From positions 1 through 64,000 of the forward strand of contig CAMYMH010000002.1 of assembly GCA_947259275.1 (NCBI GenBank): a DNA stretch of 64,000 nt, written 5' to 3'. Made by a program: the position numbers and the translations under genes. Shown one piece after another: positions 10,780-56,869 of the stretch (positions are counted from its first letter, which is position 1; the number at the start of each line of letters is the position of its first letter). The stretch comes from an uncultured Acidimicrobiaceae bacterium (GTDB lineage Bacteria > Actinomycetota > Acidimicrobiia > Spongiisociales > SHLN01). The notes below the pieces were generated by a model. That model saw only the letters and a program-made list of their open reading frames with translations, did no database searches and was not told where the DNA came from.

Positions 10780-13688
10780 AGCTCACCGTCACGGTCAATG
10801 GCATCGAGCGCAACTTCGCCTACCAGCCTCACGAGTCCCTCAAGGCGGTGTTGCGCAGAGAGGGCTACTACAGCGTTCGCTTCGGCTCGGAAACCGGCGA
10901 GACCGGCGCCGCCGCCGTTCTCCTCGACGGCCGGCTGGTATCGGCCGAGATCCTGCTGGCGGCGCAAGCCGATGGGCACGCGGTAGACACCGTGGAAGCC
11001 CTCGCCCCCGGGCGGGGCTTCGACCCGATTCAGGAGGCCTTCATCGTCACCGGGGCCATCCAATCCGGATATTCAACCCCCGCCATGATTCTCGCCGCCA
11101 AGGCTCTACTCGCCCGCAACCCGGATCCGACCGAGGAGGAAGTCCGCGACGTGCTGACCGGTATTCTCGACCGCGAAACCGGCTATCTGCGGCCGGTCCA
11201 GGCCATCCTGCGGGCCGCCGCAGTATTACGCGGGGATGAGGTCGAGCCGGTCGAGGCCTGGCTGGTGTCGGCCCTCACCGGGCCCGAGGTGGAGGGCCCG
11301 ACCGATCTCACCAGGCCGCTGTCGGACATTCCGATGGGTGCTCCACTTGTGATCCCGAGCCCCGAGGTTCCCGAGACCAACGTGGTGGGAAAGCCCGAGC
11401 GCAAGGTCGATGCCATCAAGCTGGCCAAAGGACGGCCCGCCTTCACCGACGACATCGAGATGCGGGGAATGCTCTACGCCAAGATGCTGTACAGCCCCCA
11501 CGCCCACGCCCACATCGTCGGCATTGACGACTCCCGGGCCCGTGAGCTTCCCGGGGTCCACGCCGTGCTCCACCATGAGAACACGGAGCGGGTGCGATAC
11601 GCCTCCGGCGGGCAGAGTTACCCCAACCCGCTCCCATACGACCAGGTGAGCTTCGATAACAAGGTCCGGTTCGTGGGCGACCGGGTGGCGGTGGTGGCGG
11701 CCGACAGCATCGAAATCGCCGAGGAGGCGGTCGGCCTCATCGACGTCACCTATGAGGTGCTCCCCGCCGTGTTCGATGAGCTCGAGGCAATCACGGGTGA
11801 CGCGCCGGTGATCCACGATGAAGATGACATGGACGGTGCTCATGACGCCGCCCGCAACATCGTGCACCACATGGAAGCCGAGGTGGGCGATGTGGCGGCC
11901 GGCTTCAAGAAGGCCCACCGGGTATTCGAGAACACCTATCGGGTTCACCAGGTGCAGCAGTGCCCGATCGAGCCCCACATCGCCATCGCCTACCTCGATA
12001 GCGACGAGCGGCTTGTGATCAGGACCTCCACGCAGGTTCCCTTCCATGTCAGGCGGATGGTGGCACCGCTGCTCGGGCTCCCGGTCAAGCAGATCCGTGT
12101 CATCAAGCCGCGCATCGGGGGCGGCTTTGGAGCCAAGCAGGAGATGCTCATCGAGGACGTTGTCGGCCATCTGGCGCTTGCTACCGGGCGCCCGGTCCGG
12201 CTCGAGCTGACCCGTGAGGAAGAGTTCATGTCGAGCCGGACCCGCCACCCCCAAACCATCACCTACCAGACCGGCGTCAGCAAAGATGGCCTGCTTGTCA
12301 GTCAGTCGATGCGGATCGTTGGGAACACCGGGGCGTATGGCACCCATGCCCTGACGGTTCAACAGGTGAGCGGCCTGCGGGGCTTGAGCTCTTACAACTC
12401 GCCGAACAAGCGTTTTGACTGCGACGTGGCCTACACGAATATCCCGGTGCCGGGCGCATATCGGGGCTATGGGGCCCCGCAGGCTCTGTTCGCCCTCGAA
12501 TCGCATATGGAGGACATCGCCGTCGAGCTGGGCATGGATCCGCTCGAGTTCCGCCGCCAGAACTGGACCAAGGTGGGAGATCCACTCGATATCGCCACCC
12601 GCCTCGGCGAAGGCGCCTCCGATATGGAGGTGGTGCCGGTCATCACCTCGAGCGGCCTCGAGGAGTGCGTGGCGCAGGGGGAACGAGCCATTGGGTGGCA
12701 CCGCCGTTCTGACCCGGAGTGGATCGCTCCACCCGACCGACCCCACATCCGGCGAGGGATCGGATTCGCCATGTGCATGCACGGCACCGCCATTCCCGGG
12801 CTCGACATGGGGGCAGCCAGCATCAAGATCAATGATGACGGCTCTTTCAATCTTCTGATTGGTGCCACCGACCTCGGGACCGGGGCGGACACCGTCCTCG
12901 CCCAGATGGCTGCTGAGGTGCTGGGCGTGCCACTGGAGGACATCGTCGTGTACGCCGCCGACACCGATATGACGCCATTCGACGTTGGCGCATACGCGTC
13001 GAGCACCACCTACGTATCGGGCATGGCGGTGAAGAAGGCAGCCGATGAGGTTCGGCGCCAAATCACCGAGCGGGCCGCCCTCATGCTCGACCTCGACTCG
13101 GCCGGCGAGGTGGACCTCGCCGACCGGCGGGCATTTGCCGCCGACGGGAAGGCAGTCGGCCTCGACGAGATCGCCCTCCACTCGCTCCACCAGGATCAGC
13201 AGCATCAGATCATGGCGACCGCATCGTACGTCTCGCCGGAGTCACCCCCGCCATACGCCGCCCAGTTCGCCGAGGTCGAGGTCGATATCGAGACCGGCCA
13301 GGTGACGGTCAAAGCTCTTGTCATGGCCGTGGACTGCGGGGTGCCAATCAATCCCATTACCTCGGCCGGCCAGGTGGAGGGAGGCATGATTCAGGCACTC
13401 GGCTACGGGCACTGCGAGGAGATGGCCTACGACCAGGCCGGCCGCATGGTCAACCCTCGCTTCGGGCCCTACAAGATCTACCGGGCGGATGAGATTCCCC
13501 GCATCGAGGCCTATCTGGTGCAAACGATGGAGAAGAGCGGACCGTTCGGGGCCAAGGCCATCGCCGAGATCCCAAAGGACGGCGTCGCCCCGGCCATCCG
13601 CAACGCCATCGGCAACGCCGCCGGCACCTGGATCGATCAGCTCCCGTTCACCCCCGAACGGGTGTTCAACGCATTACAGAGCACCTAG
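10776..13688 (+). CDS. xdhD: XdhD-like molybdopterin-binding subunit with Cys-less ferredoxin-like N-terminal domain
   Basis: 970 aa; GRPAFTDDIEMRGMLYAKMLYSPHAHA, IGGGFGAKQE, GAYRGYGAPQ, KSGPFGAKAIAEIP; N-terminal domain aligns with [2Fe-2S] domains but lacks the Cys ligands. Confidence 0.85.
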   Translation: MKLTVTVNGIERNFAYQPHESLKAVLRREGYYSVRFGSETGETGAAAVLLDGRLVSAEILLAAQADGHAVDTVEALAPGRGFDPIQEAFIVTGAIQSGYSTPAMILAAKALLARNPDPTEEEVRDVLTGILDRETGYLRPVQAILRAAAVLRGDEVEPVEAWLVSALTGPEVEGPTDLTRPLSDIPMGAPLVIPSPEVPETNVVGKPERKVDAIKLAKGRPAFTDDIEMRGMLYAKMLYSPHAHAHIVGIDDSRARELPGVHAVLHHENTERVRYASGGQSYPNPLPYDQVSFDNKVRFVGDRVAVVAADSIEIAEEAVGLIDVTYEVLPAVFDELEAITGDAPVIHDEDDMDGAHDAARNIVHHMEAEVGDVAAGFKKAHRVFENTYRVHQVQQCPIEPHIAIAYLDSDERLVIRTSTQVPFHVRRMVAPLLGLPVKQIRVIKPRIGGGFGAKQEMLIEDVVGHLALATGRPVRLELTREEEFMSSRTRHPQTITYQTGVSKDGLLVSQSMRIVGNTGAYGTHALTVQQVSGLRGLSSYNSPNKRFDCDVAYTNIPVPGAYRGYGAPQALFALESHMEDIAVELGMDPLEFRRQNWTKVGDPLDIATRLGEGASDMEVVPVITSSGLEECVAQGERAIGWHRRSDPEWIAPPDRPHIRRGIGFAMCMHGTAIPGLDMGAASIKINDDGSFNLLIGATDLGTGADTVLAQMAAEVLGVPLEDIVVYAADTDMTPFDVGAYASSTTYVSGMAVKKAADEVRRQITERAALMLDLDSAGEVDLADRRAFAADGKAVGLDEIALHSLHQDQQHQIMATASYVSPESPPPYAAQFAEVEVDIETGQVTVKALVMAVDCGVPINPITSAGQVEGGMIQALGYGHCEEMAYDQAGRMVNPRFGPYKIYRADEIPRIEAYLVQTMEKSGPFGAKAIAEIPKDGVAPAIRNAIGNAAGTWIDQLPFTPERVFNALQST

Positions 13689-13696
13689 CGCCGCCG

Positions 13697-14491
13697 ATGA
13701 ATACGGGTCACGATCTAAGAGTGCTTCGTCAGTTGACCGAAGCCGTCGAGTCCGGATCTCCGGTCGTGCTCGCCACGGTGGTTGCCACCCAGCGGTCGGT
13801 GCCGCGCCATGCCGGCACCAAGATGCTCGTTTATCAGGACGGCCGGCTGGCCGGGACCATCGGCGGCGGCGAGATGGAATCCCGGGTCATCGAAGAAGCC
13901 CGCGCCGCACTCGTTACTCGCCGCCCGCAACTGCTGGACTATTCCCTACTGGAACCCGCCCGCGGCGACCCCGGTGTGTGCGGCGGCGAAGTGAAGATCT
14001 ATTTGGAGCCCTATATGCCATCGCACACCATCCTCATCATCGGCGCCGGTCATGTTGGCCGGGCCGTCGTCGACCTGGCCGACTGGCTCGGATATCGCAC
14101 GATCGTCATCGATGATCGACCTGAGCGCCTCACCCAAGCCGAGCTGCCGAAGGCCGGTCAGCGGCTGGCGGGCTCGATCGGTGAGGCTCTGGATGGGTTG
14201 GAAATCACCGAAGGCACTTCGGTAGCGGTAGTCACCCGCAGCGTCGACCAGGACGTCGAAGCGATCCCGCGCCTGCTGGCGAGCCCCGCCGGATATATCG
14301 GCGTCATGGGAAGCGACCGGCGGTGGCGAGAAGTCAAAAACCGGCTGGAAGAGATGGGTATCGGTGAGGCCGAGCTCGAGCGGGTGCATGCCCCGATTGG
14401 ACTGGAAATCAATGCCGAAACTCTCGAGGAAATCGCCGTCTCCATCCTCTCGGAGATCATTCGAGTCCGTGGGGCGGGCGACCAGGCGTGA
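13697..14491 (+). CDS. xdhC: XdhC family molybdenum hydroxylase maturation protein
   Basis: VLATVVATQRSVPRHAGTKMLV, CGGEVKIYLEP, ILIIGAGHVGRAVVDLA, GYIGVMGSDRR. Confidence 0.85.
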   Translation: MNTGHDLRVLRQLTEAVESGSPVVLATVVATQRSVPRHAGTKMLVYQDGRLAGTIGGGEMESRVIEEARAALVTRRPQLLDYSLLEPARGDPGVCGGEVKIYLEPYMPSHTILIIGAGHVGRAVVDLADWLGYRTIVIDDRPERLTQAELPKAGQRLAGSIGEALDGLEITEGTSVAVVTRSVDQDVEAIPRLLASPAGYIGVMGSDRRWREVKNRLEEMGIGEAELERVHAPIGLEINAETLEEIAVSILSEIIRVRGAGDQA

Positions 14492-15294
14492 TGTTGTTCG
14501 GCGGTCACCTCATCGTCATCCGCGGCGGAGGTGACCTGGGCACCGGAGCCGCCTTCCGGCTCAGCCGGGCTGGTTTCCCCGTCGTAGCGCTCGAGCTGGC
14601 CGCCCCCCTCGCCATCCGGCGGGCGGTGGCTGTTTCCTCGGCGGTTGCCGCCGGGCGAGTGGTTGTCGAGGGCATGGCGGCCGAGCGGGTCGAGTCGGCG
14701 AAGTCGGCGGTCGAGATCGCCCGGACCGGCTCGGTGGCCGTGCTGGTTTCGCCTCGGGTTCCCGATGAGATCGATGGCCTCTTCGGGGTCATCGACGCCC
14801 GGCTCGCCAAGCGCAATCTGGACACTCGGATCGATCAGGCGGCGGTGGTGGTTGGGCTGGGACCGGGGTTCACCGCCGGGGTCGACTGTCATGCCGTGGT
14901 CGAGACCATGCGCGGCCATCACCTGGGAAGGGTTTTGTGGGAGGGATCGGCAGCCGCCGACACCGGGAGCCCGGGTGTCGTCGGGGGAGCGTCGGCACGG
15001 CGGGTGATCCGAGCCCCCCGAGACGGGCGGGTGACCTGGTCGGTGGAGATCGGTGACATCGTGGCCGAGGCGCAGCCGATTGGCCGGGTCGGGGAAACAC
15101 CGGTCGAGGCCACCATCGCCGGCGTGGTCCGGGGGCTCATCGCCGAGGGTCACACCGTGGCCGCGGACATGAAGGTGGGCGATATCGATCCCCGGGCAGA
15201 TCCCAGTGCCTGCTTCCAGATATCCGACAAGGCATTGGCCGTCGGCGGGGGAGTGGTGGAAGCCGTCCTGACCCGTATCAACCGGCTGTCGTGA
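14488..15294 (+). CDS. yqeB: YqeB/EF2563-type selenium-dependent molybdenum hydroxylase accessory protein
   Basis: IVIRGGGDLGTGAAFRLSRAGFPVVALELAAPLAIRRAVAVSSAV; context with YqeC. Confidence 0.85.
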   Translation: MMLFGGHLIVIRGGGDLGTGAAFRLSRAGFPVVALELAAPLAIRRAVAVSSAVAAGRVVVEGMAAERVESAKSAVEIARTGSVAVLVSPRVPDEIDGLFGVIDARLAKRNLDTRIDQAAVVVGLGPGFTAGVDCHAVVETMRGHHLGRVLWEGSAAADTGSPGVVGGASARRVIRAPRDGRVTWSVEIGDIVAEAQPIGRVGETPVEATIAGVVRGLIAEGHTVAADMKVGDIDPRADPSACFQISDKALAVGGGVVEAVLTRINRLS

Positions 15295-16010
15295 CCGTCG
15301 ATCTGATCGAACTCTTTGGCCTTCGGTCTCGTGAGCTGGTGGCTTTCACCGGCGGCGGAGGCAAGACGACGCTGTTGCTCGAGCTGAGCCGCCAGTTGGC
15401 GAATCGGGGTGACGGGGTGGTGGTCACTACCACCACCAAACTCGGGCTCGACCAGACCGACGGGGTCGAGATCGTGTGGTCACTCGACCTCTTCCAGGTT
15501 GAATCTGCCCTCGACGGCGCCGGAACGGTGTTCGTGCTCAGCGAGGGAGACGATTACAAGGTCCGCGGCTACGAGCCAGAGCTGGTCGACGAACTATTTG
15601 TCGACAGCAGCGCCGGATTTGTCCTGGTTGAGGCCGATGGATCGAGAGGTCGACCCCTCAAGGCTCCTGCCGACCACGAACCGGTCATACCTGCGGCCGC
15701 TACAGTCGTCGTCGTCGTCATGGGAGTTGACGCCGTGGGTCGCACGATCTTCGAGGCAGCTCACCGGCCCGGGACGGCCGCGGCACTCACGGGACTCGGC
15801 GAGCAGGAGCCGATCACCCCGAAGGCGGCGGCCGCAATCCTGACTCACCCGCAAGGGGGCCTGAAGGGCATTCCGGCCGAGGCCCGGGTCGTGATCGCCC
15901 TCACCAAGGTCGCGGTCGGCAACCGGGCAGCCGCCGCCCAGATCCATGATCTGGTGGCTCAGCACCGGCGGGTGCAGCGGGTCGTGACCATCCCACTCCT
16001 GGACGCTTGA
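15291..16010 (+). CDS. yqeC: YqeC-type selenium-dependent hydroxylase accessory protein
   Basis: VAFTGGGGKTTLLLELSRQLANRGDGVVVTTTTKLGL P-loop; EADGSRGRPLKAPADHEPVIP. Confidence 0.85.
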   Translation: MTVDLIELFGLRSRELVAFTGGGGKTTLLLELSRQLANRGDGVVVTTTTKLGLDQTDGVEIVWSLDLFQVESALDGAGTVFVLSEGDDYKVRGYEPELVDELFVDSSAGFVLVEADGSRGRPLKAPADHEPVIPAAATVVVVVMGVDAVGRTIFEAAHRPGTAAALTGLGEQEPITPKAAAAILTHPQGGLKGIPAEARVVIALTKVAVGNRAAAAQIHDLVAQHRRVQRVVTIPLLDA

Positions 16011-20378: not shown

Positions 20379-23300
20379 CTACTCCTCGTACCCGGGATGG
20401 GGAACGAAGCTCCCGCGCGAGCCGTCGGCGGCCATGACCGGGAGGTGGCTCATCGAGCCCTGCAGCCCCTTGAGAAGGATGAACATGTCGGCGGCCGGCT
20501 CCAGGGAGAGCGCTTCGCCGTCGGAGGCCGCGGTTGGGGTTGCCTCCAGCAGCTTGAAGGTGTCCTTGTCCAACGCGGCAGAGAACCGAGGCGAGGTGTA
20601 CTCCACCGCCCCGTTTAGAACCAGCCGGTGGGTCTCGCCGTCCACCCGTGACTCGATGGCGCCATCATCGAACACCATGAAGGCGTTGTTCTTCTCCGCT
20701 TCGAAGTCGGCGCGGTCCAGATAGATCCGGGGCTTGTCGACGTAGGGAGTTCCGGAGGTTGGACACGCCGTCTCGCAGTTCCCGCACTCGTTGCAGAAAT
20801 CGGTGAGCACCGCGATCTGCAGCATCTGATCAGCTCCGTAGGAGAGCGACTCACCCTCAGCCACCCCGCCGGCGCGTGCCGTCAAAGCCGGCAGCGCCAC
20901 CCGGAAAGGCTCCATCTCGTAGGTCATGAGTGCCATGTTGGGGCAGACGCCCACGCACAAGCTGCAGATCTCGTGGCAATCGAGGCAGCGAGCTGCCTCG
21001 GCCATGGCCTGCTCGGGCGTGAAGGTGAGCTGGGTTTCGTTGAAGTTGTTGCGATCATCCAAGGGTGTGTGCTCGGCCTGCACGCGGTACTCCCGGCGGG
21101 AGCGGCGCACCATCATCTGCTGGAGGTTGACCTTCTCCATCGTCTCAGGCGGGCGGGCGGTGCTTACCCCATGCTTGGCGGCGATGGCGGCGGCCAGTTG
21201 CTTGCCGTCGTTGGCGGCCACCACGATCGACGATGGACCGTGGGCGGCCACATCTCCACCGGCGTAGACCTGCGGGATCGAAGTCTCGAACGTGACCGGG
21301 TCGGTCTGCAGATAACCGCTTCCCGTCAGCTCGGGGGTCTCGTCGCCGAAGAAGTCGAGGATTGAGTGTTGGCTGATGGCGAGGATCAGCGTGTCGAGCG
21401 GGATCTCGAAGTCGGAGTCGGCTACGTCGTGGGGAATCTTGCGACCCGAATCGTCACGATCGCCCCGGTACTCGGTGCGGGACACCACCAGCCCGGCCAG
21501 CTTGCCGTCCTGGATATTCAGAGCGCTCGGCTTGACCAGCTCCATGATCTTGATGCCTTCTTCAATTGAGGCATGGATCTCTTCACGATCGGCCGGCATC
21601 TGGTCGATGGTGCGGCGGTAGATGAGGGAAATGTCCTCCCCGCCCACCCGCAAGGCCGACCGCACGCAGTCCATGGCGGTGTCGCCGGCTCCGATCACCC
21701 CCACCCGGGCGCCGATGGCCGGCGGGTTCCCTTCCCGTACATTGCGGAGGAAATACAGCGCGTCCATGATCCCCTCAGAGTCCTCGCCGGGCAGATTGAG
21801 CCGCTTGGCCAGCTGGGCGCCCACCGCCACCACAATCGATCCATAGCCGTCGGCCCGCAGGTCGTCGAGAGTGAAATCGACTCCGGCGGACTGGTTGTAC
21901 CTGATCTCGACGCCCAACTCTTCGAGGATGGCCATGTCCTGATCGATGTCCTTCTGCGGCACCCGATACTCGGGGATGGCGCCCCCCACCATGCCGGCCG
22001 GGTAGGGATGGTGTTCAAAAACGGTTACCCCGAACCCGGCATAGGCCAGCTCCTGGGCGGCGGCGATGCCGGCCGGGCCCGCCCCGATGATCGCCACCCG
22101 CTTGCCGACCTCGGGTTTGCGAGTGAACGTCACCGGCGTGGTCTCCTGCTCCATGATGAAGCGCTTGATCTGGCGGATGGCGAGCGGCTCGTCGTAATGA
22201 GTGCGAATACAGGTGTTCTCGCACAGGTGGTCACACACCTTGCCGAGCATGGCCGGCATCGGGTTGTCCTCTCGAGTCAGTCGAACTGCCTCAACCAAGT
22301 CGCCTTCCCGGACCGCGTTCATGTACTGAGGCACCTTCTGATCGACCGGGCACTCGTCCAGGCAGGGTGCCTCGATGCAGTCGTAGTAGTCGAGGGTGCG
22401 GGGAGTCTTGGACCGATCCATGCGGAAGGTGGCCTTCAGGTAGCGGCGGTCGGTCAGCACCCGGTCCGCGTACGCTCGCAGGTTGATTCGTTCCAGGACG
22501 TTCATGACCACCATCACCAACTCGTGGCTACGTGCCTCGTCCAGGCCTTTGGTGCTCGCCCACGTGCGCACGGTGTCCATGAGGGGGTCGCCCCCGATGG
22601 AGGAAGCAAGCGCGGCTCCCAGGCCGGCGCAATCGGCCCGCGACAAGGCGAGCCCGCTGTCGGATAGTGCGGCCAGCCGCAGCATGGGAGCGAATTCGAT
22701 GAAGCCGTCCTCGGCCACCGCGGTCCGGGCGATGAAATCTTGGATGTCGGAGGCCCCGGCTTCCTCGATGGCGCGCTCCAGGTTCTCCACGTACTGCAGC
22801 ATCCGCAGATACCCACCCGACTTGAGAATGTCGCTGCAGGTGGTGACGGTACGCATCCCCGAGCGCACCAGGTCGGCGACGTTGAAGCAATCGGCCCCGC
22901 CGGCAAAGGACATGAGGAGGTCACCGTGGAACTGCTCGGAAATCCTCAGCCCCAGATTGCTGGTAACCGGGTGGAGGGCCCGGCCCGACAGGTACATCAT
23001 GTCGTCGCGGTCGAACACCGTCTTCCAATTGGTCACTTCGAGGGTGTTGGTGAGCTTGACGCCAAAAGTGCGATCCCGGGCGCGGGCCACCCGGCGCAGG
23101 CTATGCAGCATGGGAACCGCGTCCACGTACATCAAATCGTGGCCGAAGGCTTCATCGGGGATTGGCACATCATCGAAGCCGAGCTGGTCGTTGACGATCG
23201 AACGCACCCGGTCGGCCCCCAACAAGGTCGGGTTGAGCTTGACCGACGCATGCAGGCCCCGCTCCTCCAGCAGGTAGACCATGATCCTCTCGATCTCATC

Positions 23301-23948
23301 GGGCGGGCACCCGTGCATGGTGGATAGGGTGATGGTGTCCGACAGCCGAGATGGGATGTCGATGGTGCGGACGTCCGGGTAGCGCTCGGCCACGATGTCG
23401 ACGTAGGCCGGGAGGTAGGCCGAAGCGTCGTTCATGGTATCGAAGAACCACTGGACGTTTGGCTTGAGCATCCCCTCGAGGTTGTAGCCGACGCTCATGT
23501 TGAACACCATGCCCGGCTGATCACCCGGGAAGCCGAATTTGTGATGGAGGGCGTGGATCAGCACCCAGGCCCGCAGGTACTCGTCGAACGATTCGAAGAT
23601 CTTCAGCTCCTGGGACCATTCGACGTTGTAGCCCTCATCCTGAATGTCGATGCATGGCTTGTTGACGTCGAGCTCATCCAGGGTCTGGACCGTCTTCAGC
23701 TCGATGAAGCGGGCACCCACTAGCCAGGAGACGACGATGTTCTGGGCCATCTGTGAGTGCGGACCTGCGGCCACACCGAACGGAGTCTCCAGCTCTACCC
23801 CGTACTTCTCGATTCGGAACTTGTCTTCCGGCTTGGGAACGAACCAGGCCGATTCGGGAACCCCGAACAGCGCGTTCTTGGTCTCGAGCTCGTCGAACAC
23901 CCAGTCGGTGAGCTGTTCCATCGAGATGAGGTGAAACCGGTCGGACAT
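20379..23948 (-). CDS. ygfK: YgfK family protein (TIM-barrel + GltD-like FAD/NAD(P) module + [4Fe-4S] domains; putative selenate reductase annotation family)
   Basis: start MSDRFHLISMEQL; GPHSQMAQNIVVSWLVGARFIELKTVQTLDELD; CLDECPVDQKVPQYM; GKRVAIIGAGPAGIAAAQELA; CLDCHEICSLCVGVCP; CNECGNCETACP. Confidence 0.88.
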   Translation of the reverse strand: MSDRFHLISMEQLTDWVFDELETKNALFGVPESAWFVPKPEDKFRIEKYGVELETPFGVAAGPHSQMAQNIVVSWLVGARFIELKTVQTLDELDVNKPCIDIQDEGYNVEWSQELKIFESFDEYLRAWVLIHALHHKFGFPGDQPGMVFNMSVGYNLEGMLKPNVQWFFDTMNDASAYLPAYVDIVAERYPDVRTIDIPSRLSDTITLSTMHGCPPDEIERIMVYLLEERGLHASVKLNPTLLGADRVRSIVNDQLGFDDVPIPDEAFGHDLMYVDAVPMLHSLRRVARARDRTFGVKLTNTLEVTNWKTVFDRDDMMYLSGRALHPVTSNLGLRISEQFHGDLLMSFAGGADCFNVADLVRSGMRTVTTCSDILKSGGYLRMLQYVENLERAIEEAGASDIQDFIARTAVAEDGFIEFAPMLRLAALSDSGLALSRADCAGLGAALASSIGGDPLMDTVRTWASTKGLDEARSHELVMVVMNVLERINLRAYADRVLTDRRYLKATFRMDRSKTPRTLDYYDCIEAPCLDECPVDQKVPQYMNAVREGDLVEAVRLTREDNPMPAMLGKVCDHLCENTCIRTHYDEPLAIRQIKRFIMEQETTPVTFTRKPEVGKRVAIIGAGPAGIAAAQELAYAGFGVTVFEHHPYPAGMVGGAIPEYRVPQKDIDQDMAILEELGVEIRYNQSAGVDFTLDDLRADGYGSIVVAVGAQLAKRLNLPGEDSEGIMDALYFLRNVREGNPPAIGARVGVIGAGDTAMDCVRSALRVGGEDISLIYRRTIDQMPADREEIHASIEEGIKIMELVKPSALNIQDGKLAGLVVSRTEYRGDRDDSGRKIPHDVADSDFEIPLDTLILAISQHSILDFFGDETPELTGSGYLQTDPVTFETSIPQVYAGGDVAAHGPSSIVVAANDGKQLAAAIAAKHGVSTARPPETMEKVNLQQMMVRRSRREYRVQAEHTPLDDRNNFNETQLTFTPEQAMAEAARCLDCHEICSLCVGVCPNMALMTYEMEPFRVALPALTARAGGVAEGESLSYGADQMLQIAVLTDFCNECGNCETACPTSGTPYVDKPRIYLDRADFEAEKNNAFMVFDDGAIESRVDGETHRLVLNGAVEYTSPRFSAALDKDTFKLLEATPTAASDGEALSLEPAADMFILLKGLQGSMSHLPVMAADGSRGSFVPHPGYEE

Positions 23949-33945: not shown

Positions 33946-35112
33946 TTGACCCAGGCAGGCGCAAGCCTCCGGGTGAGCTCGAAGTACCTCGCCTACCTCG
34001 TGCCTCTGGGGGCCGTCGGCTTCGCTCTTCTCATCGGCGCCATCATGTTGCTGGCGTTCGATGCCAGTCCCATCGAGGGCTTCCGGGCGCTCTTCCGGGG
34101 CGCATTCGGAAGCACGGATGCGCTCATCGAAACGGCTATCAAGGCGACGCCGCTGCTTTTTGTGGGTGTCGGCATCACGATTGCGTTCCGCGCCAACGTC
34201 ATCAACATCGGCGGTGAGGGGCAGATCGTGGCCGGTGGACTGCTCTCAACGATGACGGCGCTGTGGCTGCCCGATCTGTCTGCCTGGATCATGCTTCCCG
34301 CCATCCTCATCATGGGTTTTGTCGGTGGTGCGATTTGGGGGTTCATCCCGGGGTATCTGAAGGCCTATTTCGGCGTGAACGAGATCCTCAGCACGATCAT
34401 GCTCAACGTGGTCGCCGTGCAGTTGATGAACTACCTGCTCCGCCAGCCGCTCATCGACCCTGCCGAGATCGAGCGCGGAACCCGGATTCCCCAGACCGAG
34501 CGGCTCCAGGAGGGGGCGGATCTTCCGCTGCTGTTCGGCAGCGACCGCCTCCACATCGGGCCGCTGCTGGCCGTGCTGGCTGCCATCGCCGCCTACATCT
34601 TGCTGTGGCGTACGCCGCTGGGATACCGGCTCCGGGCCGTTGGGCAAAACCCGGATGCCGCCCGCTACGCCGGCATCCCCGTCAAGCGCACCATCACGCT
34701 GGCGTTGACGCTGAGCGGAGCGCTGTGCGGGCTGGCCGGAGCCGTCCTCGTGTTCGGGAGCGAGGGGCACCGGATGGTCACCGACGGCTCGACGGCCGGC
34801 TTCACCGGGAGTGCCGGGTTCAACGGAATCGTGGCCGCCCTGTTTGGCGGGCTGCACCCGATCTTCACCATCCCGGCGTCGTTCCTGTTCGGTGGACTCC
34901 TCGTCGGCGGTATCTCGCTGCAGCGGGCCGTACAGGTGCCATCGGCCTTGATCCTCGCCCTCAACGGCCTCGTCGTGATCTTCGTCGTGTCCACCGATCG
35001 ATACCGGCAGCGGCTGCGTGATCAGGACGCCCGCCGTGACGCCCTCGCCAGCGCCGGTGCCTCATCTGTGCCTCTGGCGGCCGACCGTGGGGGAGGGGGA
35101 GAAGAACCGTGA
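33946..35112 (+). CDS. ABC transporter permease, BMP/nucleoside family
   Basis: IAFRANVINIGGEGQIVAGGL; YFGVNEILSTIMLNVVAVQLMNYLL. Confidence 0.88.
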   Translation: MTQAGASLRVSSKYLAYLVPLGAVGFALLIGAIMLLAFDASPIEGFRALFRGAFGSTDALIETAIKATPLLFVGVGITIAFRANVINIGGEGQIVAGGLLSTMTALWLPDLSAWIMLPAILIMGFVGGAIWGFIPGYLKAYFGVNEILSTIMLNVVAVQLMNYLLRQPLIDPAEIERGTRIPQTERLQEGADLPLLFGSDRLHIGPLLAVLAAIAAYILLWRTPLGYRLRAVGQNPDAARYAGIPVKRTITLALTLSGALCGLAGAVLVFGSEGHRMVTDGSTAGFTGSAGFNGIVAALFGGLHPIFTIPASFLFGGLLVGGISLQRAVQVPSALILALNGLVVIFVVSTDRYRQRLRDQDARRDALASAGASSVPLAADRGGGGEEP

Positions 35113-36041
35113 GTGAGTTCTTCACCGAGGCCGTTCTGATCGCGACCATCGCATCGGGCATCCGGTTTGGCGTGCCACTTTTGCTTGCCGGACTCGGCGA
35201 AGCCTATGGACAACGCAGCGGCGTGCTCAACCTCGGGGTCGACGGTGTCATGCTGCTCGGCGCCTTCGGCGGCTACTACACGGTTCTGAAGTCGGACAAT
35301 GTTTGGCTGGGGATCGCCGTCGGCTTGGCCATCGGCCTCGTGCTCGGCGTCATCTCGGCGTTCATCACTGTCACCCTCAAAGCCGAGCAAGGCATTTCCG
35401 GCATCGGCATATTCCTGTTCGGCTTGGGGATGAGCGACTTGCTGTTTCAGCGACTCGTTGGCACGCCCCGCCCAATCGATACCTTCCCGCGGCTGGAGAT
35501 CCCGCTCCTGCGCGACATCCCCTGGATCGGGGAGATGCTGTTCCGGCAGAACGTCGTCGTGTACTTGGCGTTTCTGGCGATCCCGCTCAGCATGTTCGTC
35601 GTCAACCGCACCACCTTCGGCATGAAGATCCGCGCCGTCGGCGAGAACCCGGAAGCAGCCGACAGCCTCGGCGTGTCGGTCGCCAAGGTACGGTACGGCA
35701 CCATGCTCATCGGTGGCACCTTGGCCGGTGTGGCCGGGGCCGCCCTCGCCATCGACCTCGGGATCTTCCAGCAGAACATCACGAACGCGCAGGGGTTCAT
35801 CGCCATCGCCCTCGTGTACTTCGGGGCGTGGCGGCCGTTCGGCGTCATGCTGGGGGCGTTGCTGTATGGCTTCGTAAATGCGACCGTCATCCAGTGGAAG
35901 ACGCTGGGGATCATCCCCGACAGCTGGTCCGACATCGCCGCGATGGCCCCGGCAGTCATCACCATTCTCGCCCTCGTCGTCGTTGCCACCCGGTTCCGGG
36001 CGCCGTCGGCGCTCACCAAACCGTTTGAGCGGGGGGAATGA
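35109..36041 (+). CDS. ABC transporter permease, BMP/nucleoside family
   Basis: GEAYGQRSGVLNLGVDGVMLLGAFGGY; overlaps upstream permease by ATGA-type junction. Confidence 0.88.
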   Translation: MSEFFTEAVLIATIASGIRFGVPLLLAGLGEAYGQRSGVLNLGVDGVMLLGAFGGYYTVLKSDNVWLGIAVGLAIGLVLGVISAFITVTLKAEQGISGIGIFLFGLGMSDLLFQRLVGTPRPIDTFPRLEIPLLRDIPWIGEMLFRQNVVVYLAFLAIPLSMFVVNRTTFGMKIRAVGENPEAADSLGVSVAKVRYGTMLIGGTLAGVAGAALAIDLGIFQQNITNAQGFIAIALVYFGAWRPFGVMLGALLYGFVNATVIQWKTLGIIPDSWSDIAAMAPAVITILALVVVATRFRAPSALTKPFERGE

Positions 36042-36171
36042 TGCTGCTGGGATTACCGACCAATGACGAGTCCGCAGTGACCATCGGCACCGGTACAACG
36101 CCGGAAGGAATGGGCACAGTCAATACGAGTGTGCGGCGGCCGACCGTCGCCGAATAGAGGAGGAAGAGACA

Positions 36172-37128
36172 ATGAGATTGAGATCATGGCTGGCTTTGCT
36201 GGCGGCGATGGCCCTCGTGGCGGGGGCATGTGGCGATGATTCGGTGAGCGCCCCTGAGGGGTTCCAGATCGGCATCGTCGCTCCGTCGGCCACCAACGAC
36301 CTGGCATTTACCCAATCCATCGTCGACGCGGCCAACGTGCTGGCCGGCGATCCGGAGATTCTGATATCGGACGGCCTGTTCAACATCGACGATGCCGGAA
36401 GTGCCATTCGCGGCTACGCCGCCGACGGCGTCGACCTGGTCATCGCCCACGGCTCACAGTACGGCGGGCCGCTCCAGGAGATCGCCCAGGATTTTCCCGA
36501 CACCGCGTTTGCGTGGGGCACCACCAACGACACGTTCGGGCTCTCTAACGTCTACGCCTATGAGGCGGCCTCGGACGAGGGGGGCTACGTCATGGGTGTC
36601 ATGGCCGCAGCCCTGACCGAGACCAACAACATTGGGATCGTTGGTCCGATCGAGACCGGCGACGCCAAGCTGTATGTGGACGGCTTCGAGGCCGGCGCTC
36701 TGTCGGGCGGCGCCAATGTCAGCAAGGTATACACCGGGTCCTTCAGCGACGTGGCGCTGGCTAAGCAGGCGGCTGAGGCGTTTGCTTCCCAGGACGTCGA
36801 CGTGATGAGCGGTACTGCCCAGATGGTCGTCGGTGCCGTCGGAGTGGCGGACACCGAGGGGATCCTGTGGTTTGGCACTCAGTCCAACCAAGCTGAGCTC
36901 GGCGACATCGTCGTTGCCTCCCAGGTGTACAAGTGGGAGGTGGTGCTCGAGGACATCCTCAGCAACATCCAAGACGGTGTGCTTGGAGGCCAGTCGTACG
37001 AGATCAACTTCGAGAACGATGGCATCGTGCTGGAGTACAACGACGCCTATGACTTGCCGGGCGATGTCGAGAGCCTTGCCGAAGAAACGATCGACGGCAT
37101 CAAGGATGGGTCGATCTCGACCGGTTAG
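36172..37128 (+). CDS. BMP family ABC transporter substrate-binding lipoprotein
   Basis: lipobox LVAGACGDD; YAADGVDLVIAHGSQYGGPLQEIAQDFPDTAFAW. Confidence 0.88.
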   Translation: MRLRSWLALLAAMALVAGACGDDSVSAPEGFQIGIVAPSATNDLAFTQSIVDAANVLAGDPEILISDGLFNIDDAGSAIRGYAADGVDLVIAHGSQYGGPLQEIAQDFPDTAFAWGTTNDTFGLSNVYAYEAASDEGGYVMGVMAAALTETNNIGIVGPIETGDAKLYVDGFEAGALSGGANVSKVYTGSFSDVALAKQAAEAFASQDVDVMSGTAQMVVGAVGVADTEGILWFGTQSNQAELGDIVVASQVYKWEVVLEDILSNIQDGVLGGQSYEINFENDGIVLEYNDAYDLPGDVESLAEETIDGIKDGSISTG

Positions 37129-37141
37129 CAGATACCGATGA

Positions 37142-37173
37142 GTGATCGGGGGCACGGCTCGGCCCCCGATCAC
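37142..37173. other. intercistronic stem-loop between SBP and ATPase
   Basis: GTGATCGGGGGC-acggctcg-GCCCCCGATCAC, perfect 12-bp stem. Confidence 0.75.
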
Positions 37174-37201
37174 CAGAATTGAGGAGCAAGCCATAGCGAA
37201 T

Positions 37202-38710
37202 ATGCCCATGATGGAGATGCGGGGGATCACGAAGCGGTTCCCCGGTGTCCTCGCCAACGACAACGTCGATTTCGACGTGCAGGCGGGCGAGGTCCACACC
37301 CTGCTCGGAGAGAACGGCGCCGGCAAGAGCACGCTCATGAAGATCCTCTACGGCCTCTACCAGGCCGACGAGGGTGAGATTCTTCTGAATGGCGACCCGA
37401 CCGTCATCGACAGCCCGACCACGGCGATCAGTCACAACATCGGGATGATCCATCAGCACTTCATGCTGGTGGAAACCCTCACCGTGGCCGAGAACGTGGC
37501 CCTCGGGCTGCCGTCAAGCCGGGGAGCCCTCACCGACCTGGATGTCGTCTCGGACCATATCGTCGAGCTCGGGTCCCAGTACGGCCTCGAGTTGGACCCA
37601 GCCGCGCTCGTATGGCAACTGGCAGTCGGTCAGAAGCAGCGGGTCGAGATCATCAAGGCGCTCTACCGGGAGGCTCGGCTGCTCATCCTCGATGAGCCGA
37701 CCGCCGTGCTCACCCCGCAGGAGGTCGACCAGCTGTTCGAAACCCTTCGTCAACTGACGACCGATGGGCGGGGGCTCATCTTCATCTCGCACAAGCTCCA
37801 TGAAGTCCTAGCGCTCAGCAACCGGATCACGGTTCTGCGGCAGGGCCGGGTGACCGGCCAAGCCACGCCGGCTGAAGCCACCAGAGAATCGCTCGCCGAG
37901 ATGATGGTGGGGCGGGAAGTGAAGCTGGCCCCAGATAAGCCCGCGGTCCAGGTGGCGGAGCCGGCGTTGGAGATTCGTGATCTCGAGGTGTACGGGGATC
38001 GCGGGATCGTGGCAGTCGAGCACTTCGACCTCGAGGTGCGAGCCGGCGAGATTCTCGGGATCGCCGGCGTGTCCGGCAACGGACAGCGAGAGCTCGCTGA
38101 ATCGATTGCCGGCCTCCGGGAAGTTACCAAAGGCAGCATCTCGATCGCCGGTACCGACGTGACCAATCATCGCCCGATCGAGATCCGCGACGTCGGCCTG
38201 GCGTACGTGCCCGAAGGCCGCTTGAAGGATGGGAGCATCGCCGACTTCACCGTTTCGGAGAACATCCTGCTGGTGGATCACCGGGACGATCGGTTCCTCA
38301 ATCGGGGCCTGTTCGACTTCGGTGCGATTCGCGAGCATTGCCAGGGGCTGGTCGACGATTTCGCCGTCAAGACCCCAACGCTGGAGACCCCGGTGCGGAG
38401 CTTGTCGGGGGGCAATATCCAGAAGCTGATCCTGGCGCGCGAACTGGAGGGGACTCCCACCGTGCTGCTTGCCTCCCAGCCAACCCGCGGCGTCGACATC
38501 GGAGCCGCCGAGTACATTCACGAGCGACTCGTGGCTCAGCGTGAGCGGGGGACTGCCATCCTGGTCATCTCCGAGGACCTCGACGAGGTGTTTGGCCTTT
38601 CCGACCGGATCGCCGTCATGTATGAGGGGCGGGTGATGGGAATTGTCGACCCTGCCACCGCCACCCGCGAGGAGGTCGGTCTGATGATGGCTGGGGTGAG
38701 TCCGGATTAG
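37202..38710 (+). CDS. ABC transporter ATPase with two nucleotide-binding domains (BMP/nucleoside family)
   Basis: [25 protein letters not shown]; second half [37 protein letters not shown]. Confidence 0.9.
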
Positions 38711-49682: not shown

Positions 49683-51467
49683 ATGGACAATGCCCCGGCC
49701 CTCACCCCGTTTCCACTCGACGTACTGCTGGGGCGGGTTGCCCACGAGTGGGAGACTCGTCAGCGCATCTTCGACCTACCAACCGCCCGGTTCTGGAAGC
49801 GATCCGCCGCCGTTGACCTCTCGATGGAGTTCATGGGAAGGCCGGCTGCCACCCCGGTCGGTCCGGCGGCCGGGCCCCACAGCCAGATGGCGCAGAACAT
49901 CGTGCTCGGCTGGCTGGCCGGTGCCCGGGTGTTCGAGCTGAAGACGGTGCAGGTGCTCGACGAGCTCGAGATTGGCCGGCCATGCATCGACATGGAGACG
50001 ATCGGCTTCAACATCGAATGGAGCCAGGAGCTTCTGGTCTCAGAGTCCCTCGAGGAATATGTCAAGGCGTGGATGATGATCGAGATCCTGCGTCGCTGGG
50101 AGCCGCTGCATCCGTTCCTCGGGGAGGACCCGGGGCCATACGTTTTCGATATGTCGGTCGGATACGACCTGGCGGGGATCCAGACCGACAAGGTTGCCGG
50201 GTTCATCGACTCGATGCGCGACGCCGGCGACGTGATCGATCGGCTGCGGCCCACGATCCCTGAACCGTTCGCCGCCTTCCGCGACCACGACTTCCCAGCC
50301 GCCATCTCCGACACCCTCACCCTGTCGACGTTTCACGGTTGCCCGCCAGACGAGATCGAGGCCATGGTCAAGCACCTGATGGACCGCCACGGGCTCGATG
50401 TCATCGTCAAGCTCAATCCGACCCTGCTCGGTTTTCCCCGGGTGGCGGAGATTCTCCAGAAGGATCTCGCCTACGAGCACATCCGGCTCAATCGCCTGTC
50501 GTTTGTCGACGATCTCGAGATCGGCCGGGCGGTTGACCTGATCACCGATCTCCAGAAGTACGCCGCCAGGCTGGAACGCCGCTTCGGGGTCAAACTCACC
50601 AACACGATGGTGGTGAACAACGATCGCGACTTCCTTCCCGAAGACCCGATGTACATGTCGGGCCCCCCGTTACACGTGTTGGCGACCAGCCTGCTCGACG
50701 ACCTGCTGAGCACGATGCCGGGAACCTTCATGGTGGCCGGCCACGACGGTCCGGTCCAGGTGAGCTTCTCGGCCGGCGTGGCCAAAGGAAACATCGGCGC
50801 CACGATTGGGATGGGCGTTGCGCCGGCGACGCTGAGCTCCGATTTATTGCGACCCGGAGGCTACGGGCGCCTCGAGCCGATGATCCGTCAGCTCGAGAAG
50901 GACATGGAAGCGGCCGGGACCCGCACGCTGGGGGAGTGGCACCAGCACAGCTGGAATGCCGCCCGGGCCGGGGGGTTCCGTGGCCCGGCCGAGGCCCACA
51001 TGACGGACATCGTCAAGGGGCACGGCAAGTCGCAGTACGACCTGTACGCCCACGAGGATCCGCCCCGCCACGTCGATCACGACCTGGAAATGTGGGGATG
51101 CGTGGCGTGCAACTTCTGCGTCACCGTCTGTCCGAACGACGCCTTCTTCCGGCTGCCGACCCCGGAGGGTGCCGGCATCAGCGGCCGTCAGCAGTACTTC
51201 GTGTTGGCGGAGCTGTGCAACGAGTGCGGCAACTGCATGGTGTTCTGTCCCGAGAACGGCGACCCCGCCAAGAGGAAGCCCAAGCTGTATCTGGATCCGC
51301 GCAGGTTCGCCCTGGGAGAGGGCCAGGGTTTCCTACTCACGGCCGACAATGGGGGCGTGGGGATCACGGCCCGAGAGGGGTTCGACACCGAGCTCCCGCG
51401 ACTCGACTTGCTATTGAACGACGCCCGCGAGGGAATCCCGATCCGGACGGGCGATCTCCAGGGATGA
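49683..51467 (+). CDS. compact YgfK-like protein (TIM-barrel + two [4Fe-4S] motifs, no GltD-like module)
   Basis: GPAAGPHSQMAQNIVLGWLAGARVFELKTVQVLDELEIGRPCIDMETIGFNIEWSQELLVSESLEEYVKAW collinear with YgfK; CVACNFCVTVCP and CNECGNCMVFCP; no dinucleotide-binding motif. Confidence 0.85.
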   Translation: MDNAPALTPFPLDVLLGRVAHEWETRQRIFDLPTARFWKRSAAVDLSMEFMGRPAATPVGPAAGPHSQMAQNIVLGWLAGARVFELKTVQVLDELEIGRPCIDMETIGFNIEWSQELLVSESLEEYVKAWMMIEILRRWEPLHPFLGEDPGPYVFDMSVGYDLAGIQTDKVAGFIDSMRDAGDVIDRLRPTIPEPFAAFRDHDFPAAISDTLTLSTFHGCPPDEIEAMVKHLMDRHGLDVIVKLNPTLLGFPRVAEILQKDLAYEHIRLNRLSFVDDLEIGRAVDLITDLQKYAARLERRFGVKLTNTMVVNNDRDFLPEDPMYMSGPPLHVLATSLLDDLLSTMPGTFMVAGHDGPVQVSFSAGVAKGNIGATIGMGVAPATLSSDLLRPGGYGRLEPMIRQLEKDMEAAGTRTLGEWHQHSWNAARAGGFRGPAEAHMTDIVKGHGKSQYDLYAHEDPPRHVDHDLEMWGCVACNFCVTVCPNDAFFRLPTPEGAGISGRQQYFVLAELCNECGNCMVFCPENGDPAKRKPKLYLDPRRFALGEGQGFLLTADNGGVGITAREGFDTELPRLDLLLNDAREGIPIRTGDLQG

Positions 51468-52975: not shown

Positions 52976-53057
52976 CGGGCTGCCCCTGCGGGGCAGCCCG
53001 ACTCCCGCCAAGCGGGAGTAGAAACGATGTCGACCGGGCGAAGCCCGGTCTACATCG
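52976..53057. repeat. three tandem perfect/near-perfect hairpins overlapping ygeW-like 3' end
   Basis: CGGGCTGCCCC-tgc-GGGGCAGCCCG; ACTCCCGC-caa-GCGGGAGT; CGATGT..ACCGGGC-gaa-GCCCGGT..ACATCG. Confidence 0.85.
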
Positions 53058-54024
53058 TTAGCGCCATGACCGCCTTTTGGGCGTGGAGGCGGTTCTCGGC
53101 CTGGTCGAAGACGGCGCTCCAGCGGCCGTCGATGACGCCGTCGGTCACCTCGACGTTGCGGTCGGCGGGGAGTGGATGCATGTAGATGGCGTCTTGGTCG
53201 GCCAGCTCCATCCGCCGCTCGTCGGTGATCCAATCTGTGTACTGCTTGGATATCTCGGCGGACTCGTCGAGGTCGTCGGTGGTGAGCATGGATCCCCAGC
53301 TCTTGGCGTACACGACGTCGGCCCCGGCCATGCCCTCGTCGAAGTCCTCAACGATCTCGAAGCTGCCGTGGGCCTTCTTGGCGTTCTCCTCGGCCTGGGC
53401 GACCACCTCGGGCATGAGCTTGAACTCGGGCGGCCGGGTGAGCCGCACGTTCGCCCCGTAGCGGGTCATGAGCAGGATGAGGCTCTGGGGCACGCTGAGC
53501 GGCTTCTGGTAGCTGGCCGCATAGGCATAGCTGACGTTGATGGTGAGATTCTTCGGATCGCCCTTGTGCTCGAGGATGGTCTGGAGGTCGGCCAGCGCCT
53601 GGAAGGGGTGATACCAGTCGCACTGCATGTTGAGCACCGGGGTACGGCTTGCCTCGGCGACGGCCCGGATGTAGTCGTTGCCGATGCCCCAGTCGACCTG
53701 GCGGATGGCGATGCCGTCGTTGTAGCGCCCGAGGATGTCTCCGATCTCCTTCCAGGTGTCGCCGTGGCCGATCTGGGTGCTGGTGCTGTCGAGGAACATT
53801 GCGTGCCCGCCCAATTGGGCCATTCCGGCCTCGAAGCTGGCCCGCGTCCGGGTGCTGGAGAAGAAGAACAGCATCGCCAGGACCTTGTTGTCCAGGTACG
53901 GGTGCGGCTCGCCGAGCGCACGCTTGCGCTTCAAGTCGAAGGCGACATCCAGCACCGTGTCCAGCTCGTGCTTGGTCCACTCCTGAGTAGTGATCATGTC
54001 CCGTCCACGCAGGTATGTCTGCAT
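53050..54024 (-). CDS. ygeW: YgeW-like knotted carbamoyltransferase
   Basis: FFFSSTRTRASFEAGMAQLGGHAMFLDSTSTQIGHGDTWKEIGDILGRYNDGIAIRQVDWG; MQCDWYHPFQALADLQTI; YQKPLSVPQSLILLMTRYGANV. Confidence 0.8.
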   Translation of the reverse strand: MQTYLRGRDMITTQEWTKHELDTVLDVAFDLKRKRALGEPHPYLDNKVLAMLFFFSSTRTRASFEAGMAQLGGHAMFLDSTSTQIGHGDTWKEIGDILGRYNDGIAIRQVDWGIGNDYIRAVAEASRTPVLNMQCDWYHPFQALADLQTILEHKGDPKNLTINVSYAYAASYQKPLSVPQSLILLMTRYGANVRLTRPPEFKLMPEVVAQAEENAKKAHGSFEIVEDFDEGMAGADVVYAKSWGSMLTTDDLDESAEISKQYTDWITDERRMELADQDAIYMHPLPADRNVEVTDGVIDGRWSAVFDQAENRLHAQKAVMALTM

Positions 54025-54816: not shown

Positions 54817-54878
54817 CAAATAGTACCGACGTTGAACCCGGTTGTCCAACTCCGAGGTCTTCCCCTCCCTTGAGGGCG

Positions 54879-54917
54879 GCCGGGCTTCGCCCGGCTCAGG
54901 AATTGCTTCGCAACTCC
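54879..54917. repeat. two hairpin modules in the leader of the divergent carbamoyltransferase
   Basis: GCCGGGC-ttc-GCCCGGC and GGAATTGC-ttc-GCAACTCC. Confidence 0.65.
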
Positions 54918-54973
54918 ACAGGCGGGATAGGAACCGGCACTCAACAAACCAGCCTCTGCACAAAGGAGTGAAC

Positions 54974-55924
54974 ATGCGCAGCTTTGCGGGACGCGACATC
55001 CTGTCGCTGAAGGAATTCGAGCGTAACGAGTTCGAGCACCTCTTCGGTATCGCCGACCGGCTCGAGCCCATCGCCCGCGAGCGGCGCAACACCGACCTGC
55101 TGTCGCACAAGACCCTCGTAACGGCGTTCTACCAGCCTTCCACCCGCACCCGCCTCGCCCATGAGGCTGCCATGCACCGCCTGGGCGGCCACGTGACAGG
55201 TTTCTCTGATGCCAAGATGACCCGGGCCGGCGACTTCTACCAGGAGTCCATCAAAGACACCGTTCACATGCTCGAGTACTACGGCGACGCTCTCGTCATG
55301 CGCCATTTCCAGCAGGGTGCCCCGCACGAAGCGGCCAAGTGGGCATCGATCCCGGTCATCAACGCCGGTGACGGCTGGGGTGAGCACCCCACCCAGGTAT
55401 TGACCGACCTGTACACGGTTGACCGGGAGATGGGCAGTGTCGACGGCAAGACGTTCGTCTGCATCGGCGACCACCGGATGCGCACGATGCACTCCATTGG
55501 ATATGCCCTCTCGCAGTTCGATGCCGAGATGGTGATCCTGGCCCCGGAAGAAATGTCGCCCACCAAGGAGTTCCTGGCCGAGCTCGACGAGAAGGGAACC
55601 ACCTGGCGCATTGCCGACCACATTGATGAGGTCATCGCCGACGCCGACGTCATCTACATGGAGCCGGTGGTGCAGCCCGACTACACCGCCAGTCGCCAAG
55701 AGAAGCAAGCTGAGTACGGGCTCACGCCTTCCAACTATCAGATCACTCGCCAGGTGATGAAGAAAGCGAAGTCGGACTCGATCGTGCTGCACTCGCTACC
55801 GCGGATGGACGAGCTCTTGCCGGAGGTCGACAACACCCGCCACGCCCGCTACTGGCAGGAGGCCTACAACGGCGTGGTCATGCGGATGGCGTTGCTCGCC
55901 AGCGTGCTGGGCGCAGTGGAGTAG
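54974..55924 (+). CDS. divergent ATCase/OTCase-family carbamoyltransferase, second substrate unknown
   Basis: FYQPSTRTRLAHEAAMHRLGGHVTGFSDAKMTRAG; INAGDGWGEHPTQVLTDLYT; VLHSLPRMDEL; non-canonical MEPVVQPDYT at the usual TRVQ position. Confidence 0.85.
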   Translation: MRSFAGRDILSLKEFERNEFEHLFGIADRLEPIARERRNTDLLSHKTLVTAFYQPSTRTRLAHEAAMHRLGGHVTGFSDAKMTRAGDFYQESIKDTVHMLEYYGDALVMRHFQQGAPHEAAKWASIPVINAGDGWGEHPTQVLTDLYTVDREMGSVDGKTFVCIGDHRMRTMHSIGYALSQFDAEMVILAPEEMSPTKEFLAELDEKGTTWRIADHIDEVIADADVIYMEPVVQPDYTASRQEKQAEYGLTPSNYQITRQVMKKAKSDSIVLHSLPRMDELLPEVDNTRHARYWQEAYNGVVMRMALLASVLGAVE

Positions 55925-55927
55925 GCG

Positions 55928-56869
55928 ATGCCGCGAGCAGTCATAGCCATCGGCGGCAACTCGCTGATCAAAGACAAAGAACACCAGTCGATCGAGGACC
56001 AGTATGAGGCCGCCGGCGAGACCGATCAGCACATCGCCGATCTGGTCGCTACCGGATGGGACGTGGCCATTTCCCACGGCAACGGTCCCCAGGTCGGGTT
56101 CATCATGCGGCGCTCGGAGCTGTCCCGGTCTGAGTTGCATGAGGTCCCGATGGACGTGGCCGGCGCCGATACTCAGGGTGCGATCGGCTACGCCCTCCAG
56201 CAGAACCTCGTCAACGACTTCCGGGCGATGGGGATCGACAAGCCCGTTGCCACCGTCGTCACCCAGGTAGAGGTCGCCGCCGACGACCCGGCCATGCTCA
56301 ACCCCTCGAAGCCGATCGGCACGTTTCTCGACGAGGCGGAAGCCAGGAAGCGGGCAGCCGAGGAAGGCTGGAATGTGGTTGAGGACGCCGGTCGCGGTTG
56401 GCGCCGGGTGGTCGCCTCACCCCAGCCCACGCGCATCGTCGAGATCGACGTGATCCGCCAGCTCATCGACTCGGGTGTCATCGTCATCTGCGTCGGCGGC
56501 GGCGGGATTCCGGTTGTGGCGGACGAGCAGGGCGATCTGCACGGCGTGGCCGCCGTCATCGACAAGGATCTGGCCTCGGCGCTGCTCGCCAACGAAATCG
56601 ACGCCGACCTGCTCATAATCTCGACCGCGGTGGAGAAGGTGGCACTCCGGTTCGGGACTCCCGAGCAGGAGTGGGTGGACCGGTTCACGCTTGCCGAGGT
56701 CAAGCAATACCTGGACGAAGGCGTCCACTTCGCCGAGGGATCGATGGCCCCCAAGATGCGGGCCGTCGTCCAGTTCCTCGAAGCCGGCGGCAAAGAGGCA
56801 CTCATCACCAATCCCGAGAACATCATGCGAGCCATGGAAGGCGAGACCGGAACCCGAATCGTCCCGTGA
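55928..56869 (+). CDS. arcC: carbamate kinase
   Basis: AVIAIGGNSLIKDKEHQSIEDQYEAAGETDQHIADLVATGWDVAISHGNGPQVGFIMRRSEL; CVGGGGIPVV. Confidence 0.93.
   Translation: MPRAVIAIGGNSLIKDKEHQSIEDQYEAAGETDQHIADLVATGWDVAISHGNGPQVGFIMRRSELSRSELHEVPMDVAGADTQGAIGYALQQNLVNDFRAMGIDKPVATVVTQVEVAADDPAMLNPSKPIGTFLDEAEARKRAAEEGWNVVEDAGRGWRRVVASPQPTRIVEIDVIRQLIDSGVIVICVGGGGIPVVADEQGDLHGVAAVIDKDLASALLANEIDADLLIISTAVEKVALRFGTPEQEWVDRFTLAEVKQYLDEGVHFAEGSMAPKMRAVVQFLEAGGKEALITNPENIMRAMEGETGTRIVP

Follow-up and report, generated by a model that had tools for sequence, protein, structure and literature searches.

A reductive pathway of uric acid breakdown was described in 2025 (PMC12507026). In this pathway Escherichia coli YgfK and SsnA, together with NAD(P)H, convert yanthine (2,8-dioxopurine) into ureidomethyl-hydantoin, and the downstream enzymes of the reductive uricolytic cluster are HyuA, YgeW/UacY, YgeY and YgeX (PMC12507026). 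In Clostridioides difficile YgfK is replaced by UacX, a PydA-type protein without the FAD domain, for which ferredoxin has been proposed as the donor; the reductants named to date are thus NADH (YgfK), ferredoxin (UacX, a member of another protein family) and F420 in Chloroflexota (PMC12507026). PydAc, which has neither the FAD nor the NADPH domain, reduces uracil with ferredoxin (PMC7332683).

We analysed a stretch of 64,000 nucleotides (the window) from an uncultured Acidimicrobiaceae bacterium that encodes both a long YgfK and a compact homologue; no description of a compact YgfK was found in the literature searched. The compact form shares with the YgfK proteins of E. coli and Enterococcus a homologous FMN/TIM barrel, conserved motifs and the C-terminal 2×[4Fe-4S] domain, but the Fer4_20/FAD/NAD(P)H module is missing in its entirety, and the protein scores far below the family cut-off and belongs to a separate clade. 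It resembles UacX in combining an FMN barrel with Fe–S clusters, in the absence of the FAD domain and in having SsnA and a FAD-less XDH homologue as neighbours (the FAD-less XDH adjacent to UacX shows low similarity to XdhD; PMC12507026). UacX, however, is by its description a PF01180, PydA-type protein, whereas the compact protein has no PF01180 match and lies on the YgfK branch. The FAD/NADPH-less architecture is also that of PydAc, for which the use of ferredoxin is proven, while compact YgfK would use it by analogy; the substrate of PydAc is uracil, and the protein retains a pair of ferredoxin domains with four clusters in all, in contrast to the one 2×[4Fe-4S] domain and the purine context of the compact form. 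Dihydropyrimidine dehydrogenase (DPD) likewise has two Fe–S domains, of which compact YgfK keeps one. The order of an FMN barrel followed by 2×[4Fe-4S] is found in E. coli PreA as well, but PreA is adjoined by PreT and compact YgfK is not.

Domain architecture and active-site residues

The compact gene is an intact, stop-free reading frame (Table 1). Residues 7–410 of the protein align to positions 4–398 of the TIGR03315 YgfK profile with 419 bits; the curated equivalog cut-off, which applies to the whole protein, is 835 bits, and we therefore call the protein YgfK-like and not a TIGR03315 equivalog. Fer4-type Pfam models match residues 472–525, which hold the two cysteine motifs CVACNFCVTVCP (residues 473–484) and CNECGNCMVFCP (residues 512–523), and all eight motif cysteines are unchanged in an alignment of 44 homologues. 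The Pfam search of the protein gave no match to Fer4_20 or Pyr_redox and none to PF01180 (DHO_dh) at E ≤ 0.001; in NCBIfam there was no match to the PreA family, in which true PreA proteins score 683–688 bits.

Table 1. Features of the window discussed in the text.
Feature	Position	Strand	Remarks
YgfM-like FAD subunit and XdhD-like Mo/Fe–S subunit	10033..13688	+	37% identity to E. coli XdhD
XdhC-family maturase, YqeB, YqeC (selenium-molybdenum cofactor genes)	13697..16010	+	TIGR03309 and TIGR03172 over cut-off
Long YgfK, 1189 aa from ATG	20379..23948	-	TIM barrel, Fer4_20, FAD/NAD(P)H module, 2×[4Fe-4S]
SsnA-type amidohydrolase, short form, 340 aa	23960..24982	-	Only good SsnA in the genome
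FAD-less Se-dependent-XDH-type Mo hydroxylase, 871 aa	31204..33819	-	2Fe-2S and Mo domains; TIGR03311 817 bits, cut-off 830
Nucleoside/BMP-type ABC transporter	33946..38710	+	Two permeases, binding protein, ATPase; relatives have the same set in their purine loci
Compact YgfK homologue, 594 aa	49683..51467	+	FMN-type TIM barrel ~7–418, linker, 2×[4Fe-4S] 473–523
Two [4Fe-4S] motifs CxxCxxCxxxCP	51099..51251	+	Cys473/476/479/483 and Cys512/515/518/522
Ornithine/YgeW-type carbamoyltransferase	53050..54024	-	36.6% identity to E. coli YgeW
Aspartate carbamoyltransferase-type enzyme and carbamate kinase	54842..56869	+	

The long YgfK of the window scores 876 bits against the same cut-off, and its longest ORF has Pfam matches to Fer4_20 (residues 604–684) and Pyr_redox (698–996). 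The preliminary description was right to place a long YgfK at this position but left out the minus strand; the plus-strand translation is riddled with stops. Comparing the two forms, the barrels share ~41% identity (residues 15–418). When both are aligned with the YgfK proteins of E. coli and Enterococcus, it is seen that the part missing from the compact form extends from the barrel end to the C-terminal Fe–S domain, leaving a linker of ~55 residues, and that the motifs conserved with E. coli YgfK are retained. The domain models thus find the FAD/NAD(P)H module in the long form only. The initial proposal of a YgfK-like N-terminal barrel and two cysteine motifs in a 594-residue frame lacking the GltD-like FAD/NAD(P) block agrees with the reading frame, the motifs, the TIGR03315 match, the missing Fer4_20 and Pyr_redox matches and the alignment gap: the compact ORF is confirmed to be intact and to encode a YgfK-type FMN/TIM barrel plus a 2×[4Fe-4S] domain, without the NAD(P)H-oxidizing half.

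An AlphaFold2 model of the compact protein, built with 44 homologues, has a mean pLDDT of 90.6 and a pTM of 0.92. According to Foldseek, the solved structure in the PDB most similar to the model is DPD, followed by DHODH; searching the PDB by sequence with either the protein or the profile matched the Fe–S domain only, and the barrel match comes from the fold search. Comparison of the compact family with E. coli PreA using hhalign gave a probability of 90.7 (E = 1.5e-7) over both the barrel and the Fe–S domain. The DPD equivalents, assigned by sequence motif and not by superposed coordinates, are Lys87 (K574), Asn110 (N609), Glu112 (E611), Ser215 (S670), Lys243 (K709), Asn307 (N736) and Thr308 (T737), and all seven are conserved in compact and long forms alike. 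DPD Asn668 and Cys671 are replaced by Thr213 and Thr216, as they are in E. coli YgfK. The loop after Thr216 is shorter than in DPD; His218 and Cys220 are invariant and are candidates for the proton donor.

These residues bear on whether the oxopurine substrate differs between the long and compact forms (yanthine for one and another dioxopurine, or a pyrimidine, for the other), so that the two forms would represent two substrates and not two electron routes. We consider this a minority possibility, at perhaps one chance in four. The DPD-equivalent substrate residues are identical in the two forms, which argues against it. In its favour, 106 barrel positions are conserved in the long forms and 13 of them are altered in each of two compact lineages (described below), five of these (107, 264, 328, 358 and 364) being altered in both, compared with 1.6 expected (hypergeometric p = 0.009). 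Position 107 is close to the Asn110 substrate loop. Arg328 comes after the SG motif, and Gly364 is part of the GG motif; the two motifs are equivalent to DPD 766–767 and 794–795, in the FMN-phosphate region.

Distribution, phylogeny and selection

Relatives of the compact protein were found at 80 genome loci, with 55–87% identity and nearly all in Acidimicrobiia. In an IQ-TREE tree of the barrel (52 rows) the compact forms of Acidimicrobiia make up one branch with 100/100 support, the separate clade that had been suggested as a check on the first reading. The compact proteins of two further loci (L174 and L175) nest among the long YgfKs of another class (100/99 support), which from relationship and neighbours appears to be Coriobacteriia. 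This nesting implies at least two origins of the compact architecture. A single origin of all compact forms was rejected by the AU test (p = 4.9e-5, to be read with caution given the long branches). For the Acidimicrobiia branch, the tree is compatible with either a lost NAD(P)H module or one that was never joined.

Differences from the nearest relative are distributed over the three codon positions as 57/37/267, indicating strong purifying selection and thus that the compact gene is not a pseudogene. The edge of the deletion falls at a domain boundary, as it might in a recent deletion derivative of long YgfK, but the ~41% identity to the local long form, the clade support, the selection and the 80 related loci together refute this origin, and we give it practically no weight.

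Within a sample of 246 Acidimicrobiia genomes of at least 90% completeness, 47 have the compact form (including one, G208, in which the gene is split into two contig-edge pieces), 24 have the long form and five have both. The compact clade is conserved in this large group of mostly uncultured actinobacteria. The joint presence of long and compact forms, emphasized in the preliminary description, is true of the window but is the exception, as 42 of the 47 compact genomes have no long YgfK. The same count makes it very improbable that a long chain passes electrons to a compact chain in a mixed complex. Such a heteromer would suit the tandem long and compact genes of two relatives (L176 and L177) and the occurrence of both forms in the window; the two genes of the window, however, lie ~26 kb apart on opposite strands.

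The purine cassette

We compared the gene order of 79 loci and took context counts from the 45 with at least 5 kb on each side. The same-strand neighbours of the compact gene are XDH in 41 of these 45 loci, SsnA in 33 and a nitrilase in 31. Two layouts recur, each on one strand: M20 amidohydrolase–compact ygfK–nitrilase–XDH(Mo)–SsnA–PLP lyases, and nitrilase–XDH–SsnA–compact ygfK. By family assignment the cassette XDH is FAD-less and near TIGR03311; the other families are an N-carbamoylputrescine-amidase-like nitrilase, an allantoate-amidohydrolase-like M20 enzyme and an 8-oxoguanine deaminase. Nitrilase/M20 and other PLP lyases are present in most compact loci. SsnA and the XDH homologue are neighbours common to YgfK and the compact form, as is YgeX in some loci: L046, L059 and L068 each have a YgeX homologue next to the compact gene, and the one in L068 scores above a diaminopropionate ammonia-lyase family cut-off. 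A hydantoinase is present but unlinked to the compact gene in 18 of the 19 genomes tested.

SsnA and an XDH homologue are thus found beside the reductase in relatives, while the copies in the window are 16–26 kb away. The FAD-less hydroxylase of the window is of the type that partners compact ygfK in relatives. The window ssnA adjoins the long ygfK (20.4–25 kb), with the compact gene apart from both; that its immediate neighbours include neither ssnA nor xdh counts against the role that we propose for it below. A link between the compact clade and carbamoyltransferase genes, as originally suggested, does not hold up: a carbamoyltransferase is near the compact gene in three of the 45 well-flanked loci, compared with 41 for XDH and 33 for SsnA, and we rejected this linkage as a mark of the clade. 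The window itself has three carbamoyltransferase-type genes (39443–40453, 53050–54024 and 54842–55924), two of the aspartate type and one of the ornithine/YgeW type.

The cassettes also speak on both sides of the two-substrate possibility. In L176 and L177 one apparent operon runs XDH–SsnA–long ygfK–compact ygfK with a single SsnA, and the XDH beside the compact gene belongs to the Se-XDH subfamily, distinct from that of XdhD; both would suit distinct substrates. A purely redundant role is odd where the two forms share an operon, and this also counts against our preferred explanation. In relatives, on the other hand, the position after ssnA is taken by the compact gene instead of the long one, and compact-only genomes hold the whole cassette, which argues for the same substrate.

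The SsnA of Acidimicrobiia is short, at about 340–350 residues compared with 442 in E. coli, and covers only positions ~56–345 of the SsnA profile; this is lineage-wide (43 loci). In Coriobacteriia the compact gene sits beside ssnA, and the SsnA there is full length.

YqeB occurs in two of the 42 compact-only genomes and in 17 of the 24 long-form genomes (Fisher p = 1.8e-8, ignoring phylogeny). Within one family (f2) the figures are 1/9 and 11/13, respectively (p = 0.0015, again ignoring phylogeny); in another (f8) the contrast is not seen. SelD is present in nearly every compact genome and is uninformative about selenium use, YqeB being the informative marker. The YqeB counts suggest that the compact cassette is independent of the selenium-molybdenum cofactor. 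The XdhD/YgfM-like hydroxylase of the window with XdhC, YqeB and YqeC (10033–16010) forms a second purine hydroxylase module, linked to this cofactor; such a module accompanies the long YgfK in two relatives (L178 and L181). In most genomes of the order the SelD match (C3:2458–3387 in the window genome) contains a single in-frame TGA, and SelD itself is probably a selenoprotein there.

Electron supply and proposed role

Gene order and a ferredoxin motif scan showed no GltD-like, PreT or ferredoxin gene beside the compact gene in any of the 79 loci. As both its own NAD(P)H/FAD module and an adjacent GltD-like ORF are absent, the compact protein needs an external electron donor. The preliminary description had argued for a separate partner, with the reservation that an adjacent GltD-like frame might have been missed; none adjoins the gene, and that part of the argument stands. 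The dependence on a PreT-like protein that it drew by analogy is not supported. Using PF14691 (Fer4_20) as the mark of PreT/GltD, a Fer4_20 protein is absent from 12 of the 42 compact-only genomes (at least 90% complete). The fraction lacking one is similar with and without the compact form (12/47 and 44/199 genomes, respectively), so that compact genes do not go with Fer4_20, and the only PreT of the window genome (contig C87) adjoins a true PreA (683 bits). A PreT-like partner is thus not required. PreA is the nearest characterized architecture to compact YgfK, and GltD-like proteins are encoded on contigs C87, C13 and C30 of the window genome; even so, given these counts and the 79 loci, we regard it as unlikely that the compact protein is a catalytic half that docks with a Fer4_20/FAD/NAD(P)H flavoprotein encoded elsewhere. 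The PreT–PreA pair of the window genome (C87; L125 1194–3876) is a dihydropyrimidine dehydrogenase.

With no adjacent partner, no association with Fer4_20 and PreT already paired with PreA, a general ferredoxin is the most economical donor, and compact YgfK is probably fed by a separate carrier of this kind. The window genome also encodes on C13 (L124 1336–4142) a GltA-like and FAD/NAD-binding pair that is NfnAB-like (ferredoxin/NAD(P)H) and is a possible route to reduced ferredoxin.

We therefore favour, with reasonable though not full confidence, the view that compact YgfK is a ferredoxin-fed oxopurine reductase, with yanthine as its likely substrate, stripped to the FMN barrel and the [4Fe-4S]2 domain. 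The FAD-less XDH homologue would convert urate to 2,8-dioxopurine (yanthine). Ferredoxin, as a soluble low-potential carrier, would pass single electrons through the two [4Fe-4S] clusters to FMN, and the FMN barrel would reduce the oxopurine, most likely 2,8-dioxopurine. Hydrolysis of the dihydro product by SsnA would then make the reduction step irreversible. The lack of a dedicated ferredoxin gene beside the compact gene counts against this view, as do the single Fe–S domain of the protein, where PydAc and DPD have two, and the threonines in place of DPD Asn668 and Cys671 together with the shortened loop.

More tentatively, and at somewhat less than even odds, Acidimicrobiia may carry out a complete reductive opening of the urate ring without the Se-Mo cofactor and without NAD(P)H at the dearomatizing step. 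Compact YgfK and the FAD-less XDH homologue would both run on ferredoxin, SsnA would follow, and the ureido group would finally be cleaved hydrolytically (nitrilase/M20) in place of phosphorolytically. The compact clade would be a fourth gene-level solution to the supply of reductant for purine-ring reduction, after NADH, ferredoxin (UacX) and F420, in environmental, mostly uncultured Acidimicrobiia outside the gut setting, and it may uncouple the reductive purine pathway from the associated selenium-cofactor genes.

The UBA5794 genome paper reads YgfKMN as a selenate-reducing complex (PMC12008989). The contexts of ygfK in the loci that we examined point to purine catabolism and not to selenate reduction; the demonstrated role of YgfK is in purine breakdown, and we caution against annotating ygfK as a 'selenate reductase'. 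Beside many of the purine cassettes lies a divergent gene (L104 6698–7183 and relatives, a cluster of 27); its small product is a putative regulator, carries a Fis-like helix–turn–helix at the C terminus and has no NCBIfam match.
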